Positions 6,775 through 64,000 of a stretch of 64,000 nucleotides of DNA are shown here, one piece after another (positions within the stretch are counted from its first letter, which is position 1; the number at the start of each line of letters is the position of its first letter). This DNA comes from Treponema primitia ZAS-2. GTDB taxonomy: Bacteria; Spirochaetota; Spirochaetia; Treponematales; Breznakiellaceae. The position numbers and the translations under genes were made by a program. Where the stretch lies: NCBI RefSeq assembly GCF_000214375.1, contig NC_015578.1:2790001-2854000 (forward strand). The letters are read 5' to 3'. The notes under the pieces are model-generated. The model had not been told where the DNA came from. It ran no database searches and saw nothing but the letters and a program-made list of their open reading frames with translations.

Positions 6775-7755
6775 ATGACCATCCGGGAAGCCCTTATCCA
6801 GGGTACGGCGAGGCTTAAAAAGGCGGGTATAGAAAGTCCGGGCCTGGATGCGGCCCTACTCCTGGCCTTTACCCTCACTACCGTTAAAGAGCAGCTCCTC
6901 CTCCGGGACCGTGAACCCCTGAACGCCTCCGCCGCTGAAAATTTTACCGCACTCCTGGACCGGCGTATAGCCGGGGAATGTACCGCATGGCTGCTGGGCC
7001 GCAAGGAATTCTACGGCCTGGAGTTTATGGTTACCCCGGATGTGCTGGTCCCACGGCCGGACACAGAAACCCTGGTGGAAGCAGCCCTGACCGTTCTGGG
7101 TAAAAGCCCCTCCCCTTCCGGCGCTGCTTGCAACGCCGACTTCAGTCGGAGAGTTCCCCGCGCGACTTGCAACGCCGACTTTAGTCGGAGAGTTCCCCGC
7201 GCAATACTGGACCTCTGCACCGGTTCCGGCGCAGTTGCCATAAGCCTGAAATACCAATGCCCGGAACTCAGGGTCTATGCCTCGGACATCTCTCCCCAGG
7301 CCCTGGCAATAGCCCGGGAAAACGCCGGTCGGCTTTTGGCCGATCAACCAGCTAACCCAGGTGTAGGCACCAGCAGACCGGAAGCCGGCAAGCTTGTCCA
7401 TTTTCTGGAGGGGGATCTCTTTACCCCCCTTACCCCGGATATTCCACCCTTCACCCTCATTACCGCAAACCCTCCCTATGTCCCCTCTGCGGATATTGCC
7501 GGCCTTTCCCCGGAGGTACGGCTGGAGCCCCTTTTGGCCTTGAATGGGGGTAGGGACGGGCTGGACCTGATCCGGCGCATCATTGATGAAGCCCCGGCCT
7601 ACCTTCTGCCCGGGGCTACCCTGCTTATGGAAGCAGACCCTAGACAAATGGCCGCCATTGCCCTAATACTGGAAAAAAGAGGATACCGGAACATACGAAC
7701 CTTTCAAGACCTGTCCGGGCGGGACCGGGTAATAGGAGCGCTTAGTCCGGGATGA
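6775..7755 (+). CDS. prmC: Release factor glutamine methyltransferase with in-frame repeat insertion
   Basis: 326 residues, longer than the usual 280 or so. The SAM-binding motif DLCTGSGAVA and the catalytic ANPPYVP are present. It N5-methylates the GGQ glutamine of release factors. Between the conserved VPRPDTETLVEAAL and ILDLCTGSG it carries about 27 extra residues encoded by two tandem copies of a palindromic DNA repeat (7121-7202), read as CNADFSRRVPRA twice. The insertion keeps the frame and lies in the linker between the N-terminal helical domain and the methyltransferase fold, where extra length may be tolerated. It is directly followed by the RelA/SpoT gene. Confidence 0.93.
   Translation: MTIREALIQGTARLKKAGIESPGLDAALLLAFTLTTVKEQLLLRDREPLNASAAENFTALLDRRIAGECTAWLLGRKEFYGLEFMVTPDVLVPRPDTETLVEAALTVLGKSPSPSGAACNADFSRRVPRATCNADFSRRVPRAILDLCTGSGAVAISLKYQCPELRVYASDISPQALAIARENAGRLLADQPANPGVGTSRPEAGKLVHFLEGDLFTPLTPDIPPFTLITANPPYVPSADIAGLSPEVRLEPLLALNGGRDGLDLIRRIIDEAPAYLLPGATLLMEADPRQMAAIALILEKRGYRNIRTFQDLSGRDRVIGALSPG
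7121..7202 (+). repeat. Palindromic coding repeat, two tandem units inside prmC
   Basis: Two units with a 39-base period. Each reads CTTGCAACGCCGACT, a short loop, AGTCGGAGAGTTCCCCGCG. The inner arms CCGACT/AGTCGG form a hairpin. The 39-base period is a multiple of three, so prmC stays in frame. Related units lie at 8291-8395, 29196-29222 (reverse) and 63579-63675. Confidence 0.9.
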
Positions 7756-7759
7756 AAAA

Positions 7760-10027
7760 ATGGAAGCGGTCATTTCGTCAATCAATGAAAAAATAGCCTC
7801 CTATTCCGCTGAAGATCGGGAACGCATACTCCGGGGCCTTCACTGGGCAGAGAAGCTCTATACCCAAGCCCCAACGAAGTCCCCCGCCGAAGCCCAGCCT
7901 GGCCCGGTACAGCCCTCCGCAGATATCCACTACGCCCTTTCCCAAAGCTTCCAATTCCCCCAGAGCGCCGGAGCAGCAGCCATTCTGGCGGACCTTAATA
8001 TGGATGCCGATACGATCATCGCCGCCCTGCTCCAGCATGCCCTGGAAAACCCGGCGGAAGACATCCGGGAAACCCTCATAGAACAATTCGGCGCATCGGT
8101 GGCCCTCCTGGTCGAAGGGGTTACCAGAATCGCCGACATCTCCGCAAAAAACAAAACTAACCACGAAGCCGAAAATATACGGAAGATGCTCTTCGCCATG
8201 GTCAAAGACCTGCGGGTTATTCTGATCAAGCTGGCGGACAAACTCCATACCATGCGGACCCTGGATCGGGCCGAACCGGAGGATCGGGATCGCGACTTGC
8301 AACTCCGACTTCAGTCGGCAAGTTCCCCGCGCGACTTGCAACGAAGTTCCCCGCGCGACTTGCAACTCCGACTTCAGTCGGCAAGTTCCCCGCGCAAATT
8401 TATCGCCCAGGAATGCCTGGATATCTACGCCCCTCTGGCTGATCGGCTGGGGATTTCCTGGATGAAGGATGAACTGGAGGACCTTTCGCTCAAGCACCTT
8501 AACAGAGAGATTTTCTACCAAATGAAGGAGATAGTATCCCTGAAAAAAGGGGAGCGCCAAGAATTCCTCGACAAGGTTACAGAAACCATCAGGGCCGAAG
8601 CCGCAAAGATGGGTATCACTATTGCTGTGGAAAGCCGAGCCAAACACTTTTACTCGATATACTTAAAAATGCGGAAACGTAACAAATCTATGGAAGATCT
8701 CTACGACCTGCTCGGCATTCGCATACTCTGTGACAGCATAGAGGATTGCTACACCCTTCTGGGCATGGTCCACCGCCTCTGGAAACCCCTGGACGGCCGC
8801 TTCAAAGATTATATCGCCATGCACAAGGCCAATGGCTATCAGAGCCTCCACACCACAGTTATGGGCTCATTTGAGCTCCGGTCTGACCGGAGCTCAAATG
8901 AGCTTGGAGTTAGCGAAACCAACTCCAGTGATTCGCCGCCTGCTTCAGAGGGTCGATTACTAGAAATTCAGATACGAACCTGGGAGATGCACCACATCGC
9001 AGAGTACGGCATTGCCAGCCACTGGCTCTACAAGGAAGGAAGTTCCCCGGAAGTCAAGCCCGGGGATCTCAGTATCGTTAACCGCCTAAAGGACTGGAAC
9101 CAGATCGAAACCGGGGATGGGGATAAGAGATCTTCCGAATCCTTCCTAGAGGACATCAAGCGAGAACTGCTCAAGGATTCTATTTTTGTTTTTACCCCCC
9201 AGGGTAAGGTAATAGAACTGCCCATGGGCGCAACCCCTATCGATTTTGCCTACCACATCCATTCAGCTATCGGGGACCGCTGCGCCGGGGCTAAGGCGGA
9301 TGGATCCATCATCCCCCTCTCAGCGGAACTGCGGAACACCCAGGTAGTAGAAATACTCACCGCCACCAATGCCCGTCCCCATGTAAACTGGCTGCGCTTC
9401 GTAAAAACCGCCAAGGCCCGGAACAAAATCCGCTCCTGGCTTCAGGAAAATGACGATTCGGTGATCATCGAAAAAAACGTCATCGCAAAGAAAAAAACCC
9501 CAGCAGACCAGGCGAAACCCCCTGAAAAGGAAAAACCCCCGGAAGCCCCGGTTCAGCATTTTGTCCAGGAACAGTCCGGGCTTCCCAATGTCGTCCAGGT
9601 CCGGGTGGAAGACGAAAAAAATATGATGATCCGCTTCGCCAAATGCTGCAACCCCGTAGCCGGGGACCCCATTGTGGGCTATGTATCCCGTGGCCGGGGC
9701 ATCATCGTCCACCGGAAAAATTGCAGCAATTTGGCCAACATCCCGGATTTTGCGGAACGGAAAATCGACACGGAATGGGAAAACGGCAACTCCCTTATTA
9801 AGCGCTTCAAGGTTGAGTCCCGGCTTTCTGCGGATCTGTTTTCAGAGATTGAAGGGGCGGTACGGAAACAGCAGGGCCACCTGATTGAAGGCCGGCTTGA
9901 AGAAACCGCCTCTAACCATCTGACAGGGTTTTTCACCATGCAGTTGGAACAAACGGAGGATCTTAAGAAAGTGATGAAAAACATCAGGGGAATCCCGGCG
10001 GTCTACAGTATCATATCGTTGAATTAA
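7760..10027 (+). CDS. RelA/SpoT family (p)ppGpp synthetase with degenerate hydrolase site and two repeat insertions
   Basis: 755 residues in the order HD-like domain (about 1-220), synthetase domain (about 225-420), TGS (about 473-535), zinc-finger-like CCNPVAGD (about 628) and ACT (about 680-755). The synthetase has RFKDYIA at residues 347-353, the RXKD form of the charge motif. In the HD domain the HDxxED motif reads QHALEN at residues 92-97, and the expected upstream His is absent, so hydrolysis of ppGpp is probably lost. Two insertions interrupt conserved blocks in frame: residues about 178-212 (palindromic units) and about 370-395 (a different palindrome, where homologues go directly from HTTV to LEIQIRT). 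It begins 4 bases after prmC. Confidence 0.93.
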   Translation: MEAVISSINEKIASYSAEDRERILRGLHWAEKLYTQAPTKSPAEAQPGPVQPSADIHYALSQSFQFPQSAGAAAILADLNMDADTIIAALLQHALENPAEDIRETLIEQFGASVALLVEGVTRIADISAKNKTNHEAENIRKMLFAMVKDLRVILIKLADKLHTMRTLDRAEPEDRDRDLQLRLQSASSPRDLQRSSPRDLQLRLQSASSPRKFIAQECLDIYAPLADRLGISWMKDELEDLSLKHLNREIFYQMKEIVSLKKGERQEFLDKVTETIRAEAAKMGITIAVESRAKHFYSIYLKMRKRNKSMEDLYDLLGIRILCDSIEDCYTLLGMVHRLWKPLDGRFKDYIAMHKANGYQSLHTTVMGSFELRSDRSSNELGVSETNSSDSPPASEGRLLEIQIRTWEMHHIAEYGIASHWLYKEGSSPEVKPGDLSIVNRLKDWNQIETGDGDKRSSESFLEDIKRELLKDSIFVFTPQGKVIELPMGATPIDFAYHIHSAIGDRCAGAKADGSIIPLSAELRNTQVVEILTATNARPHVNWLRFVKTAKARNKIRSWLQENDDSVIIEKNVIAKKKTPADQAKPPEKEKPPEAPVQHFVQEQSGLPNVVQVRVEDEKNMMIRFAKCCNPVAGDPIVGYVSRGRGIIVHRKNCSNLANIPDFAERKIDTEWENGNSLIKRFKVESRLSADLFSEIEGAVRKQQGHLIEGRLEETASNHLTGFFTMQLEQTEDLKKVMKNIRGIPAVYSIISLN
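8291..8395 (+). repeat. Palindromic coding repeat, three units (one shortened) inside the RelA/SpoT gene
   Basis: A full unit, a shortened unit (ACTTGCAACGAAGTTCCCCGCG) lacking the inner hairpin, and a second full unit. In a full unit ACTTGC pairs with GCAAGT, CCGACT with AGTCGG, and the CGCG ends with each other. It is read here as DLQLRLQSASSPR, a different codon phase from the prmC copies. Confidence 0.9.
8868..8930 (+). repeat. Second type of palindromic insertion in the RelA/SpoT gene
   Basis: A 16-base perfect inverted repeat (8868-8883 with 8885-8900; arm CATTTGAGCTCCGGTC) with a one-base loop, followed by a smaller hairpin GGAGTT/AACTCC (8906-8911 with 8921-8926). It encodes residues not found in homologues, between HTTVM and LEIQIRT. 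It is unrelated to the CTTGCAAC family in the same gene. Confidence 0.8.
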
Positions 10028-18237: not shown

Positions 18238-18599
18238 TATAACGCCTCTCCGCATTTTCTGCAGACCCGGGTTTTGGTGACCTTTGAATCGGGATTCACC
18301 TCAAGTTTATACCCTATCCGGGTGGGTCCGCATTTTTTACAGACGATCATCACATTACTGCTGTGGATCGCCGCTTCCAATTCCACAATTCCCCCCCGGT
18401 CCTGCTGGTTCCGGCGTTTCTGGGCTTTCTTTACGATATTAGCCCCTTCCACGACGACCCGGTCCTTGTCCCGGAGTATCTTGAGGATACGTCCACGCTT
18501 GCCCTTATCTTTTCCGGCAATGATCTGGACGGTATCATCTTTTTTCAGCTTAAATTTATGCGCTGGGAACTTCGTTGCATCTTGCGCTGCTTCAGCCAT
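18237..18599 (-). CDS. rplX: 50S ribosomal protein L24
   Basis: 120 residues with the KOW motif (KDDTVQIIAGKDKGKRGRIL) and VVEGANIVKKAQK. The C-terminal part contains CKKCGPTR and CRKCGEAL, two Cys pairs seen in some bacterial L24 proteins. Its stop overlaps the rplE start codon. Confidence 0.95.
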   Translation of the reverse strand: MAEAAQDATKFPAHKFKLKKDDTVQIIAGKDKGKRGRILKILRDKDRVVVEGANIVKKAQKRRNQQDRGGIVELEAAIHSSNVMIVCKKCGPTRIGYKLEVNPDSKVTKTRVCRKCGEAL

Positions 18600-27912: not shown

Positions 27913-29154
27913 ATGTTACGAAAGGAAGCTGTGGACGGTCAGGAATTATTGCGTTTGGAGGGAATTGAGAAGTCCTTTGGGGATACGCCGGTTTTACGTG
28001 GTATAGGCCTTACGGTGATGGCTGGGGAATTTATCACCCTCCTGGGGTCCTCGGGGTGCGGAAAAACTACTACCCTGCGGATCATTGCGGGGCTTGAAAA
28101 GGCCGATGCGGGGCGGGTGTTCCTTTCCGGGGAGGATGTGACGGACCTGGCGCCTAATAAACGGGACGTTAACATGGTGTTTCAGAATTATGCGCTTTTC
28201 CCCCATATGAACGTGGAATCAAATATCGGGTACAGTCTGCGGCTGAAAGGCCGGCCTAAGGATGAGATAAGGGGGACCGTGGCAGAGGCCCTGGACCTGG
28301 TCCAGCTTGGGGGATACGGGAAACGACTGCCCGGGGAGCTTTCCGGGGGGCAGCGGCAGCGGGTGGCAGTGGCCCGGGCTCTGGTGAACCGTCCTAAGGT
28401 GCTGCTTCTGGATGAGCCTTTGGGGGCCCTGGACCTGCGGCTGCGTCGGCAAATGCAGACAGAACTGAAACGGCTGCAACGGCAATTGAACATTACCTTC
28501 ATATATATAACCCATGATCAGGAGGAGGCCCTGACCATGTCGGACCGTATCGCGGTGATGCGGGAAGGACGCTTTGAGCAGATTGGTTCAGCCACGGAGA
28601 TTTACGACAGGCCGAAAACCAGCTATGTGGCCCAGTTTGTGGGGAATGCTAATATACTGCGGGGACGGGCGGGGGTAGTTTCGGGAAATCAAAATTTAAC
28701 CATGGACAACAAGTCGGGGGAGACTGACAAAGCAGGAAAGATACGGGAGACAGATGGGGCGGGAGAGATTATTACCTTTGAGCGGCCTGACGGCTGGGCC
28801 TGGGTTAAGAATAATGGGGAGCCTATTGCCCCGGGGCAGGAACTGACCCTGGCGGTGCGGTCTGAGTACTTGATCTTGGAACCGGTTTTGCCGGGAAACG
28901 GCGGCAGCAGGGAGGAAGGGCTGGAGGCTCAGGTTACTGAGAAGAGCTTTGCCGGGGGGCAGCTGCGGATAAGCGCGGCGCTGGAGGACAGGACAGAGAT
29001 TTGCGCCAGCAGGCAGGGGATAGATTCGCTGCTAGAGGCTGGGCAGCGGGTACGGGCGAATTGGGCCAAGCCTGGACAGGCGGTTATTGTGGACCGGGCG
29101 AATCCGGCCAAGCCTGGGCAGGCGGTTATTGCGGACCGGGAGAACCAGATATGA
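27913..29154 (+). CDS. potA: Spermidine/putrescine ABC transporter ATP-binding protein
   Basis: 413 residues. Walker [10 protein letters not shown], signature LSGGQRQR, Walker [13 protein letters not shown], then a C-terminal TOBE-like regulatory domain. It energises the PotBC channel. ATG 27913 lacks a good ribosome site, while GTG 27931 follows AAAGGAAG, so the true start may be six codons later. The C-terminus holds a 42-base tandem duplication (29065-29148) repeating AKPGQAVI-DR-N. Its TGA overlaps the potB ATG. Confidence 0.93.
   Translation: MLRKEAVDGQELLRLEGIEKSFGDTPVLRGIGLTVMAGEFITLLGSSGCGKTTTLRIIAGLEKADAGRVFLSGEDVTDLAPNKRDVNMVFQNYALFPHMNVESNIGYSLRLKGRPKDEIRGTVAEALDLVQLGGYGKRLPGELSGGQRQRVAVARALVNRPKVLLLDEPLGALDLRLRRQMQTELKRLQRQLNITFIYITHDQEEALTMSDRIAVMREGRFEQIGSATEIYDRPKTSYVAQFVGNANILRGRAGVVSGNQNLTMDNKSGETDKAGKIRETDGAGEIITFERPDGWAWVKNNGEPIAPGQELTLAVRSEYLILEPVLPGNGGSREEGLEAQVTEKSFAGGQLRISAALEDRTEICASRQGIDSLLEAGQRVRANWAKPGQAVIVDRANPAKPGQAVIADRENQI
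29065..29148 (+). repeat. 42-bp tandem duplication at the end of potA
   Basis: Two units of 42 bases encoding AKPGQAVIVDRANP and AKPGQAVIADRENQ. The units differ at a few positions, so the duplication is not recent in the strict sense but has kept the frame. Confidence 0.8.
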
Positions 29155-30056
29155 GCCGCCGCAAGGGTTTGCCACGGGCTTCGGGGACCTTCATTGCGCG
29201 GGGAACTACGTTGCAAGTAGCGTTGCTGCCTATGTACCTTTTTACCCTGGCTTTTGTGGTGGGGCCTTTGCTGTACATGGTTGCCCTGAGCTTTATGCAC
29301 CGGGAGGGGGCCTGGGGGGTGGCGGCGGAATTTACCCTGCGGAATTACCGGCGCATAGGGATTCCGGAATATGCGGGGACTTTCAGTCAGTCCATACAGC
29401 TGGCCCTGTTCAGTACCGCCATGGTTGTCTTAATCGGGTACCCCTTTGGATACTTTATGGCACGGCTGAGGCCGGTATGGCGAAACCGGGTGATGCTGCT
29501 GGTGATCATACCTTTCTGGACCAGTTCCCTGATGCGGCTCTATGGGTGGATCATCGTATTCCGGGCTAACGGGACCCTGGACCGCATACTGATGGCCCTG
29601 GGCATTATCCAAGAACCTCTGAAACTGCTCTACACGTATCCTGCGGTGGTAACCGGGATGATTTACGCATTGGTTCCCTTCATGATCTACTCGGTGTATG
29701 CCAGCGCAGAAAAACTGGACTGGGAACTGGTGGAAGCGGCCAGGGATTTGGGCGCCTCGGCAGCCCGGGCCTTCTTTACGGTGAGCCTGCCCCTGACTAT
29801 GCCGGGGCTGTTTTCCGGCGTAGTACTTACCTTCATACCCTCCATGGGGCTCTTCTTTATCGCAGATATACTGGGGGGCAACAAGGTGGTATTGGTGGGG
29901 AACCTGATCCATGAACAGTTGATGAGAGCCCACGACTGGCCCTTCGCAGCAGCACTGAGCGTGGTACTGATGGTGATGACCACGGTGTTTATTTCCCTAT
30001 ACCGGCGTCTTGCCCGATCCCTTGGGGGGAGCGGGGACCTGGAGGGGCTGGTATGA
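29151..30056 (+). CDS. potB: Spermidine/putrescine ABC transporter permease PotB
   Basis: 301 residues from ATG 29151, overlapping the potA stop as ATGA. Six hydrophobic segments and the EAA loop EAARDLGASAARAFF are present. Residues about 16-24 (ARGTTLQVA) are encoded by a reverse-strand copy of the shortened palindromic repeat (29196-29222), just before the first membrane segment. With PotC it forms the inner-membrane channel for polyamines. Confidence 0.92.
   Translation: MSRRKGLPRASGTFIARGTTLQVALLPMYLFTLAFVVGPLLYMVALSFMHREGAWGVAAEFTLRNYRRIGIPEYAGTFSQSIQLALFSTAMVVLIGYPFGYFMARLRPVWRNRVMLLVIIPFWTSSLMRLYGWIIVFRANGTLDRILMALGIIQEPLKLLYTYPAVVTGMIYALVPFMIYSVYASAEKLDWELVEAARDLGASAARAFFTVSLPLTMPGLFSGVVLTFIPSMGLFFIADILGGNKVVLVGNLIHEQLMRAHDWPFAAALSVVLMVMTTVFISLYRRLARSLGGSGDLEGLV
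29196..29222 (-). repeat. Shortened palindromic repeat, reverse orientation, in the start of potB
   Basis: Read on the minus strand it gives GCTACTTGCAACG, one T, then AGTTCCCCGCGC, nearly identical to the shortened unit at 8331-8356. It is translated from the opposite strand relative to the other coding copies. Confidence 0.75.
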
Positions 30057-32019: not shown

Positions 32020-32196
<177 letters not shown>

Positions 32197-33742: not shown

Positions 33743-36115
33743 TTACGGCATGTGCATCGTGTCACTCGCGGCTATACCCTCATTCTCGGTAAGTGTGATG
33801 TTGTTTACTGTGCCGTTGTGGCCATACACCGCTGCGCCGCGGGTATTACCGTTGACAGACGTAACGGTGTTGGCAAGGCTTGGATCCACTCCGTGGTTGC
33901 TGTCGCCGTAGACCGTGCCGCCAGACAGGGTGAAAACGCCACCATCCATCTCCACGCCGCCACCCTCGGCCATGTTAGTGTTGCATGTGGCGGTGTTGCC
34001 CGCAACCATAGTGGTATCCTTCATGATGAAAGTGCCGCTCACGACCACGCCGCCCCCCTCGGCGTTGCCAATGCCGTGCTCGCCGCTGACAGAGCCGGTT
34101 GTGGTGGCGTGGTTGCCTTTAACCGTGGCACTGTTGTTCATGGTGAAAGTACCGGCGTCTACGACCACGCCGCCGCCATGGACCTTGACAGGGCTGGTTG
34201 CGGTGTTGTCTTTGACCGAGGCGCTGTTGTTCATGGTAAAAGTGCCGCTTGCGCGTACGCCTCCCGCCATCGCCTCACCAGAGCCGGTTGCGATGGCGGT
34301 GTTGCCCTCGACCGTGGCGTTGTCGTTCATAATGAAAATGCCTCTTGCGAGTACACCTCCCGCCCTCGCCTCATCAGAGCCGGTTGTGGTGGCGGTGTTA
34401 TCTTTGACCGTGGCGTTGTCGTTCATGGTGAAAGTACTATTGTCATTCACCATCACACCGCCGCCTTCCCTGGCTGTGTTGCCGCTGATGACCGCAGTGC
34501 CTGACATGGTGAAGGTTCCCTTGTTGACACCTACCCCGCCGCCGCCCGCTTCGAGGGCTTTGTTACCGCTTATCGTACCGCCCTTCATGGTGAAGGTTCC
34601 GTTTTCGTCGTCGACACACACCCCGCCGCCGCCTTCATGATTGGCCGTATTACCGCTTATTGCACCGCCTTTCATGGTGAAGGTTCCGGTTCCATCGATC
34701 CGCACCCCGCCGCCTTGATAATCGATAGCCGTATTACCACTTATCTCACCGTCTTCCATGATGAAGGTTCCATTCTCGATCCTCACACCGCCGCTGTACT
34801 TGGCTGTGTTGCCGCTTATCGTACCGTATTCCATGGTGAAGATTGCGTCTCTGTTGACAAACACCCCGCCGCCACCATCGTTATTGGCCGTATTGCCGCT
34901 TATCGTACCATTCTTCATAGTGAAGGTTCCTTTATAGACTTCCACCCCACCGCCACCCCATTCGGTGGCCGTGTTGTCGCTTATCGTACCGCCTTCCATG
35001 GTGAAGATTGCGGTATCACCGACGCTCACCCCGCCGCTGTCCCGGGCTGTGTTGCCGCTTATCGTACCGTTCTTCATGGTGAAGGTTCCCTTCCAGGCTT
35101 CCACCCCGCCGCCGCTCGATTCGGTGGATGCGTTGCTGCTTATCGTACCGCCCTCCATGGTGAAGACTGCGTTTTCGCCGACTTGCACGCCGCCGCTACC
35201 GGTGGTGGCTGTGTTATCGCTTATCGTGCCGTCTTCCATGGTGAAGGTTCCCATCCAGATATCTACACCGCCGCCTTCACCGATGGCGTTGTTGCCGCTT
35301 ATCGTGCCGCTCTTCATGATGAAGGTACCGTTTTCGTTGACCTTCACCCCGCCACCGGAGTGGTTGGTGGCGTTGTTGCCGCTTATCGTGCCGCCTTCCA
35401 TGGTGAACTTCCCGCTGCCCTCCACCGTCTCGCCGGACTTATTAGTATAACTACTTTTATACACGGACACACCGCCGCCATGGCCGGTAGTGGTGTTGCC
35501 CGTAATCGCGCCGCTTTTCAAGACAAACTCGCCGCCTGCACCCACCCTTACCAATGAGTTGTCGTTGTCTTCCCGTCCGACCAGCCTAACGCCGTCAAGG
35601 GTAAGTTTCCGGTTATCAACATTTTTATTACCGCGGGCTTCGAGGAGGTAGCCCTTGCCCTTCAGGTAGATGGTCCCGCTCCCGTTGATGATCCCCCAAC
35701 TTGCGGTATCTTCCAAACGGATTGCGTTACTGGTGGCGTTCAACGTACCGTTCACGGTCAATGTCACATCGTGCAGCAAGATGGCCGCAGAGGGGTCGCC
35801 CGAAACATCGGTAACATCAAGGGTAACGCCAACGGGCACGGTGAGGTCGGTGACGCCTACCCTGCCGGTAATTTTTACGGTGGCACTGTTCGCCTCCGCG
35901 CTTCCCGGTTTTATGGCGTTGATGTCCGCAGCCAACTGAATAGCCATGGCTAGAGCCTCCGGCGTAGGTTCCGGTACAGGCGTAGGTTCCGGTACAGGCG
36001 TAGGCTCCGGTACAGGTGTGGGTGTGGTGGTGCCGTTATCACAGCCTGCCAAAACCAGCCCTACTGTCAACAATGCTGCCAAGACTCCCGTCACAATCAA
36101 TTTGTTCTTCTTCAT
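33743..36115 (-). CDS. Large beta-helix repeat lipoprotein
   Basis: 790 residues from ATG 36115. MKKNKLIVTGVLAALLTVG and the lipobox LVLAGC give a lipoprotein; a TPVPEP linker of three DNA repeats follows (35961-36014). About twenty repeats of the pattern GGGV...GTFTM..GTISGNTA run through the rest, predicting a right-handed parallel beta-helix like Pmp/adhesin passenger domains. There is no C-terminal autotransporter barrel, so it should be anchored by lipid at the membrane, perhaps surface-exposed. DNA-level similarity between repeats makes expansion and recombination likely. Ligand unknown. Confidence 0.85.
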   Translation of the reverse strand: MKKNKLIVTGVLAALLTVGLVLAGCDNGTTTPTPVPEPTPVPEPTPVPEPTPEALAMAIQLAADINAIKPGSAEANSATVKITGRVGVTDLTVPVGVTLDVTDVSGDPSAAILLHDVTLTVNGTLNATSNAIRLEDTASWGIINGSGTIYLKGKGYLLEARGNKNVDNRKLTLDGVRLVGREDNDNSLVRVGAGGEFVLKSGAITGNTTTGHGGGVSVYKSSYTNKSGETVEGSGKFTMEGGTISGNNATNHSGGGVKVNENGTFIMKSGTISGNNAIGEGGGVDIWMGTFTMEDGTISDNTATTGSGGVQVGENAVFTMEGGTISSNASTESSGGGVEAWKGTFTMKNGTISGNTARDSGGVSVGDTAIFTMEGGTISDNTATEWGGGGVEVYKGTFTMKNGTISGNTANNDGGGGVFVNRDAIFTMEYGTISGNTAKYSGGVRIENGTFIMEDGEISGNTAIDYQGGGVRIDGTGTFTMKGGAISGNTANHEGGGGVCVDDENGTFTMKGGTISGNKALEAGGGGVGVNKGTFTMSGTAVISGNTAREGGGVMVNDNSTFTMNDNATVKDNTATTTGSDEARAGGVLARGIFIMNDNATVEGNTAIATGSGEAMAGGVRASGTFTMNNSASVKDNTATSPVKVHGGGVVVDAGTFTMNNSATVKGNHATTTGSVSGEHGIGNAEGGGVVVSGTFIMKDTTMVAGNTATCNTNMAEGGGVEMDGGVFTLSGGTVYGDSNHGVDPSLANTVTSVNGNTRGAAVYGHNGTVNNITLTENEGIAASDTMHMP
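35961..36014 (-). repeat. Three 18-bp tandem repeats encoding the Pro-rich linker
   Basis: Plus-strand unit GGCGTAGGTTCCGGTACA three times, one with a single change. It encodes TPVPEP repeats between the lipobox and the beta-helix. Confidence 0.9.
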
Positions 36116-62831: not shown

Positions 62832-64000
62832 ATGGAAAAAATAAGCGATGGAGAAAAATTCCCTTGGAACCGTGTTCCCCGGCTCCTGAAAGCAGCCATT
62901 ATTGCCGCCGCAGTTTTTCTGGCAGGAGGCATACTCTGGCTCATCCTCTGGCCCCGGCCCACCTGGTATGTGGAGGAGCGCTTCGTCATGGATTGGGAAT
63001 TTGTGCTCAAGCGTAACGATCCGCCCTTTACCCGCATCAGGGCCTATACCCCGGAGAAAGGGCCGCCCCGCCGGGGAACGGGCTGGATCATCACCGGGGA
63101 TTTGGGAGATAGCGTCGGAGATTCGGGAGATAGCATCGGAACTTCGGAAGGCAGTGTCAGAGATTTGAGAGACAGCTCCGGGGATTTGGGAGGCAATGTT
63201 GGAACTTCGGGAGACGCCTCCGGAAAAGCCTGGGGCGCCGTGCGGATTATGCGCTTCCCCGATGAAACCCTCAGCGAGGTCTCAGGTGGAGACAGCCCCG
63301 ACAGCACCCTTGCGGACGCCGGGGAAAACCGGGACACCCTGCTTTTAGCCTTGGACCCCTGGCTGGTATTCCGCAAACACTCCCATCAGGGACTGTCCCG
63401 GAACCGGGCCGAGGCTGCCGGAGAGGGATCACTATTATTGCCCGGCGGAGAAGACGAGGCGCTTTGGGCATGGGCATCCCAGCTTCTCCAGGAAAGACCC
63501 GGTATATTTACTGAGGAAGACGAGACCTGGAAGCGGACCCTGGAGGAGCTACCAGGAGACAGCCGTTTCTGGCAGGAAGCGCTACTTGCAACGCCGAATT
63601 CAGTCGGAGAATTCCTCGAGCTACTTGCAACACCGACAATAGTCGGCCCGACTATTGTCGGCAAGTTCCTCGCGCAGGAAAGCTACTGGTTTGACACGGT
63701 GGACCTGCTCCTTCGGCAAGGGCTGTCCTGGCTCTACGCCCCCCTGAGCCGTATGCGGGAACTGTCATCCTATGATATGGGGCTTCTCACCGCAGAGACT
63801 TTTCCCTGCAGGCCCGAGTGGAATGAGTACGGTCTCCAGGCGGAGATTCTCCAGGCCATACCCATGCCCGGCAAGGGGCAAACAGAAAAACTGGCGGTGG
63901 CTAAAGCCTGGCTTCTAAGGCCCGAAATTCAAACCGCCATTGCGGATCAGCTGAAGTGGATCCCCGCCCATCCCCAGGGTGAGGCCTATAACCCCATCAG
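62832..64000 (+). CDS. Membrane-anchored protein with low-complexity and palindromic repeat insertions, 3' end outside window
   Basis: From ATG 62832 the frame stays open to the end (389 codons). The N-terminus has a single membrane segment (AAIIAAAVFLAGGILWLILW) after a short basic tail. Residues about 92-134 are a Gly/Ser/Asp repeat (GDLGDSVGDSGDSIG and similar) from related DNA units at 63107-63222. Residues about 250-282 (LATPNSVGEFLELLATPTIVG onward) are encoded by palindromic repeats. The remainder is not recognised. It probably forms an operon with the giant lipoprotein upstream and may help export or anchor it; this is inference. Confidence 0.75.
   Translation, partial: MEKISDGEKFPWNRVPRLLKAAIIAAAVFLAGGILWLILWPRPTWYVEERFVMDWEFVLKRNDPPFTRIRAYTPEKGPPRRGTGWIITGDLGDSVGDSGDSIGTSEGSVRDLRDSSGDLGGNVGTSGDASGKAWGAVRIMRFPDETLSEVSGGDSPDSTLADAGENRDTLLLALDPWLVFRKHSHQGLSRNRAEAAGEGSLLLPGGEDEALWAWASQLLQERPGIFTEEDETWKRTLEELPGDSRFWQEALLATPNSVGEFLELLATPTIVGPTIVGKFLAQESYWFDTVDLLLRQGLSWLYAPLSRMRELSSYDMGLLTAETFPCRPEWNEYGLQAEILQAIPMPGKGQTEKLAVAKAWLLRPEIQTAIADQLKWIPAHPQGEAYNPI
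63107..63222 (+). repeat. Degenerate tandem repeats encoding a Gly/Ser/Asp stretch
   Basis: Units of the type GGAGATAGCGTCGGAGATTC and GGAGATAGCATCGGAACTTC recur with changes. They fall between more ordinary coding sequence, suggesting local slippage or insertion. Confidence 0.7.
63579..63675 (+). repeat. Palindromic coding repeat, two units, in the last partial gene
   Basis: First unit CTACTTGCAACGCCGAATTC continuing AGTCGGAGAATTCCTCGAG; second unit with a larger perfect inverted repeat CCGACAATAGTCGG / CCGACTATTGTCGG (63633-63646 with 63648-63661). It is read as LLATPNSVGEFLE, the third codon phase for this family. Confidence 0.88.

Follow-up and report, generated by a model that had tools for sequence, protein, structure and literature searches.

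A 24-bp repeat with an optional palindromic core, dispersed within and between the genes of Treponema primitia ZAS-2

In the last, partial gene of the window analyzed here (64,000 nucleotides of Treponema primitia ZAS-2, NC_015578.1, positions 2,790,001 to 2,854,000), a palindromic repeat that also occurs in prmC and in a relA/spoT gene is read as part of a protein, which raises the question of whether it is kept for the hairpin that it can form or is there for some other reason. The initial annotation had described a third coding copy in the remaining codon phase, with an expanded stem whose different but still pairing sequence suggested selection for structure. The sequence, the coordinates and the in-frame reading were verified on the DNA and its translation, and the phases do differ (1 in prmC, 2 in relA and 0 in the last gene). 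Two repeat units, of 39 and 54 bp, lie at 63579-63671 and are translated in frame as ALLATPNSVGEFLELLATPTIVGPTIVGKFLA, within a host gene whose translation contains ...EALLATPNSVGEFLELLATPTIVGPTIVGKFLAQ... and which has no Pfam match at E<=1e-6. The units of the window and their host genes are as follows:

62832..64000, + strand: host gene, the last partial gene, which runs off the window (stop-to-stop frame of 408 aa, L035)
63579..63617, + strand: 39-bp unit (24 bp plus one 15-bp core) in the last partial gene
63594-63607, inside the 39-bp unit 63579..63617: core CCGAATTCAGTCGG, with one broken pair
63618..63671, + strand: 54-bp unit (24 bp plus two cores in inverted orientation)
63633..63646, + strand: core copy CCGACAATAGTCGG, left arm of the 14-bp inverted repeat
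63648..63661, + strand: core copy CCGACTATTGTCGG, reverse complement of 63633..63646 without a mismatch
63672..63676, + strand: terminal GCGCA; this right boundary is conserved in the repeat family
6775..7755, + strand: prmC, host gene, whose orthologues lack the insert
7121..7159, + strand: 39-bp unit in prmC, codon phase 1
7160..7198, + strand: 39-bp unit in prmC, in tandem with 7121..7159
7760..10027, + strand: relA/spoT, host gene; four relatives lack the 34-residue array
8290..8328, + strand: 39-bp unit in relA, codon phase 2
8329..8352, + strand: 24-bp short unit without a core, in relA
8353..8391, + strand: 39-bp unit in relA
18564..18587, - strand: solitary 24-bp unit with 3 mismatches, at a gene edge
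29200..29223, - strand: solitary 24-bp unit ACGCTACTTGCAACGTAGTTCCCC, probably intergenic

The 14-base perfect inverted repeat is present, as recovered by an arm-length scan (63633-63646 and 63648-63661; arm 14, loop 1, spacer C), but the "expanded stem" is actually two adjacent cores in inverted orientation, exact reverse complements that include the asymmetric AATA/TATT loop. Since perfect inverted copies make up 6 of the genome's 12 adjacent core pairs (2 are direct copies), one fold-back inverted duplication accounts for the pairing and explains this stem best, rather than compensatory selection. The pairing is thus real, yet it is no evidence for selection on structure, because fold-back yields it in one step, as independent compensatory changes would not; the first core of the locus, CCGAATTCAGTCGG, is mispaired.

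The window also holds repeats of other kinds. The same host gene has a 21-bp in-frame tandem repeat (63095-63192, GDLGDSV/GDSGDSI), and within the relA frame there is an apparently single-copy perfect palindrome with 19-bp arms (GCTCATTTGAGCTCCGGTCTGACCGGAGCTCAAATGAGC, 8865-8903), possibly another fold-back duplication. A 42-bp tandem duplication at 29053-29144 neighbors a decayed 17-bp tandem (29182-29214) that resembles the minus-strand 24-bp unit; 40 G in an unbroken run at 32045-32084 are likely to be a hypermutable tract; and a long array of degenerate repeats of about 81 bp (34475-35410) appears to be a repetitive coding region.

The pattern CTTGCAACNCCGACTNNNGTCGG has 6 matches in the window, where 100 shuffles gave 0, and 55 genome-wide against 1 for the reversed control, which excludes chance, and the search of the genome (one contig of 4,059,867 bases) recovered a family of at least 162 units at 119 sites. 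Its basic unit, and its commonest form, is 24 bp long, N-ACTTGCAACG-N-AGTTCCCC-GCGC followed by A, and an optional 15-bp palindromic core, CCGACTTTAGTCGGC, is located between ACG and AGTT in 0, 1, 2 or 3 copies, giving lengths of 24 (113 units), 39 (40), 54 (6) and 69 bp (1), every one a multiple of three. The sole core doublet with an odd 2-nt spacer makes a 55-bp unit at 804988, outside genes. Arrays step by exactly 24 or 39 bp and may mix the forms, as in the short-short-long-short-short array at 927622 and the long-short-long array of relA. A replication-strand bias was ruled out by the 60 versus 59 split of the sites, taking the origin to be near coordinate 1, and a gene-orientation bias is not marked (33 same, 26 opposite). 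Two related sequence types (TTCCAGCG...AGCTTCCCGCGGA and TTTCAGTA...) bear the same core at the same place, and eight core places outside recognized units were inspected, most of which belong to contexts of type A, B or C, and three of which resemble chance GC-rich palindromes. Tandem 39-bp repeats of a third, core-related type (AACTTTCAGTACCGACTTCAGCCGG...) were seen in L152 near position 1000.

Net insertion is shown by the empty sites that orthologues and paralogues carry. Three same-chromosome paralogues of the last gene lack exactly the 31 residues encoded by its two units (93 bp, 39 + 54), SelA of two relatives lacks exactly the 13 inserted residues, and the arrays are missing from RelA of four related genomes and likewise from the UvrD relatives. 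In solitary units, the right boundary GCGCA is conserved at 91-100% per base and the left GCGC is weaker (67/84/83/97% per base), and the empty alleles have CGCA or GCGC at the insertion point in relA (G144), selA (G141 and G142) and one paralogue of the last gene. The 4-bp GCGC at both ends is the only end repeat apparent in the unit. An ordinary target-site duplication was rejected, as a left tetramer that deviates is unmatched on the right; nor do the ends have the duplications of varying sequence that mark a MITE. One 24-bp unit in a methyltransferase-like gene of G141 and G143 (L253 and L254, compared with L255 and L256) causes no net change in length, the alternatives being replacement or insertion plus deletion.

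About half of the 119 sites are intragenic, and these copies occupy all six classes of phase and orientation and add a few amino acids without breaking the host gene. The hosts are for the most part ordinary genes and include dnaA, where the insert sits between the N-terminal and ATPase domains, recG, mutL, mutS2, selA, gatB, uvrD, DnaX, TrpF, a NifH/NifD-type fusion and a family-B polymerase, among others; those of replication and repair lie at genome positions 617 (DnaA), 352299 (RecG), 1555174 (MutS2), 1733363 (MutL), 3564485 (UvrD), 3891371 (DnaX) and 294698 (DNA polymerase B). No stop falls inside the element at any of the 49 intragenic sites called from flanking codon usage alone, against 8.8 expected (P about 2e-5) if phase and orientation were random. 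The copies suit their frames: the long ones have TTCA (relA, 965556 and 3552055) in the forward phase in which TTTA would make TAG, and in the reverse phase where GCGCTA yields TAG all five copies have a different base. Because intergenic copies have the same lengths, divisibility by three is a property of the element itself.

Among relatives, the 24-mer (up to 2 mismatches) is present in 15 of the 195 family genomes, mainly in one other genus and in sister species, with 33 copies in G172 and 13 in G152 and none for the reversed control, and there too the copies form exact 24-bp tandem steps, in frame within long ORFs. Exact matches in the GTDB-species collection come from six contigs, five of Treponema MAGs and one of a "Spirochaetia bacterium", and the named matches are Treponema MAGs from termite gut. 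Viral contigs gave no exact match, and carriage by viruses was rejected.

The sharp ends, the insertion into empty sites, the exact-step arrays, the modular number of cores, the stop-free frames and the occurrence of the 24-mer in other species are all observed, and on their basis we regard the repeat as probably a non-autonomous, selfish, dispersed cassette akin to the palindromic elements of Rickettsia and the small dispersed repeats of cyanobacteria, which inserts at GCGC^A and which genes tolerate because the net gain is 24 + 15n bp in every case. A copy would enter just behind a target (G)CGC and before the A, bringing its own right-hand GCGC, so that a fresh GCGC^A is left and repetition of the step may lengthen tandem arrays. 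The 15-bp palindromic core would be a second module, which took up its place between ACG and AGTT and may multiply there, through direct slippage or through fold-back (template-switch) synthesis; the fold-back route presumably produced the perfect 14-bp inverted repeat of the last gene. Because the 24-mer has hardly changed between genera with diverged proteins, we infer that something sequence-specific copies it. No mobilizing gene was found for the repeat, the three Y1 transposase genes of the genome adjoining no unit, and movement is deduced from sequence comparison. The G141/G143 copy that lies inside a gene with no net length change relative to its relatives speaks against this reading, as does the mismatch of left and right GCGC where one deviates. 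As a tentative extension, the repeat could be an ultra-small mobile cassette of a new class, with a length of 24 bp, site-specific at GCGC^A through a putative sequence-specific enzyme, codon-modular in size, with a self-multiplying nested palindrome, and spreading through termite-gut treponemes.

The pattern at the GCGC boundaries could, as read from the sequences, come from template switching as well as from an enzyme. Spread might then be enzyme-free, with replication forks switching template at GCGC microhomology, copying a unit or array from elsewhere and switching back; errors of replication would then be enough to give rise to the dispersal, the arrays and the core doublets, and no dedicated machinery would be involved. 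A degenerate left and a near-perfect right GCGC are what microhomology entry and exit predict, half of the core doublets are perfect inverted copies, and the G141/G143 copy replaces sequence with no net gain. However, replication error gives no reason to favor one particular sequence, and the 24-mer is nearly identical in several genera with a very uneven copy number among relatives (0 to over 100), which leaves this a rather unlikely account of the family.

With regard to known systems, the cassette reading places the repeat closest to the palindromic elements of Rickettsia (RPE) and Wolbachia, which it resembles in being dispersed, in frame in unrelated protein genes as well as intergenic, of several sequence types and with no transposase known of its own. 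RPEs are about 100-150 bp long (PMC3767692, PMC10969869), and a palindrome over the whole element is expected of them, whereas the insert here is 24/39/54/69 bp, only the optional 15-bp core being palindromic, and forms tandem arrays in a spirochaete host. The repeat thus behaves as a smaller counterpart of the Rickettsia palindromes that invade genes. Cyanobacterial small dispersed repeats (SDR) have a size of about 20-27 bp. They are dispersed, occur in tandem in varying number and are possibly mobile (PMC2884548), and the repeat shares with them, as far as a comparison by description goes, the small size, the tandem habit, the sharp ends and the empty sites; it differs in its phylum, in having about half of its sites within genes, and in its nested palindromic module and strict 24 + 15n lengths. 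PARCEL is likewise a coding repeat with dyad symmetry, but is 75 nt long and codes for a single conserved amphipathic motif that occurs chiefly in membrane proteins (PMC2996958), unlike a 24-nt repeat read in all frames in many housekeeping genes. The 24-bp repeat therefore works like an RPE and resembles an SDR in size and tandem habit, and it lacks features that define RPEs and REPs. No described match to it was found in the open-access literature, so an earlier description in subscription journals is possible.

REP elements were weighed not only as a likeness but as an explanation, in which a RAYT-type Y1 tyrosine transposase would mobilize the repeat. The repeat is short, dispersed and sometimes palindromic, the genome has three Y1_Tnp genes, and GTAG-/CGTC-tagged REPs are likewise small repeats that have been recorded within genes, notably those of replication and repair (PMC3733652), as are the hosts DnaA, RecG, MutL, MutS2, UvrD, DnaX and the family-B polymerase here. 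Against this, the position table has no conserved GTAG or CGTC tag and no such unpaired tag stands at the hairpin end, most units are hairpin-free, arrays run head-to-tail where REPs form predominantly head-to-head dimers, and, unlike GTAG-type REPs, which flank their cognate gene, the units are absent from the roughly 1.5 kb around each of the three Y1_Tnp genes. Over the 195 genomes the two do not co-occur: the repeat is present without a Y1_Tnp match in G141 and G142, G151 and G160 have it and are not among the listed genomes with a match, and genomes with 21 or more Y1 matches are without it, with the caveat that MAGs are incomplete. Mobilization by RAYT was accordingly rejected as improbable.

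A host function of the hairpin or DNA motif, such as a binding site or an mRNA element kept by selection, returns to the suggestion with which we began, and part of that suggestion stands. The inner stem of the core is paired in 98% of cells, and at positions 4/11 one pair has switched in concert from A-T to G-C (Fisher p 2e-6 on 82 cores, with shared descent not corrected for). Sister species (G141-G144; L197-L212) each hold 7-10 solitary copies of CGGACTNNAGTCCG, a core variant (CGGACT..AGTCCG) that keeps the stem and comes without the 24-bp unit, and none of CCGACTNNAGTCGG, of which ZAS-2 has 49 copies with none of CGGACTNNAGTCCG; in G141/G143 one of the sister-species copies lies in relA, where ZAS-2 has its array. 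Such a split favors either constraint or common copying of the palindrome. However, the stem is missing in 113 of the at least 162 units (70%), and for that reason the hairpin is not the feature that unites the family. The search for compensatory changes across copies, proposed in the initial annotation, returned the one covarying inner pair but outer helices that are paired in only 80-83% of cells, with two-sided changes in 1 of 360; the folding check proposed alongside it was similarly divided, as the last-gene stem has an RNA fold z of -6.1 while the 24-bp form does not exceed shuffles in folding, as RNA or as DNA. The window has no Rfam match, copy number varies widely among relatives as noted, and the strand and gene-orientation biases are not marked, which together make a host function improbable. 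Selection on the encoded peptide, for which the frames that stay open across inserts might speak, is highly improbable, since the six phases and orientations give unrelated peptides in unrelated proteins, one L218 gene carries two arrays in two different phases, and this reading is thus already contradicted by the phase data.

Most known repeats that invade genes and lengthen the proteins while leaving them intact come from Rickettsia and Wolbachia, and intragenic REPs are scattered among other organisms. The spirochaete set is large, apparently recent and spread over essential genes, and comes with orthologous empty sites and graded relatives. For annotation, odd inserts of 8, 13 or 18 residues in these proteins should not be taken for domains. 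If the cassette does move, it would be among the smallest mobile units known and would offer a direct route to how tiny sequences get copied.
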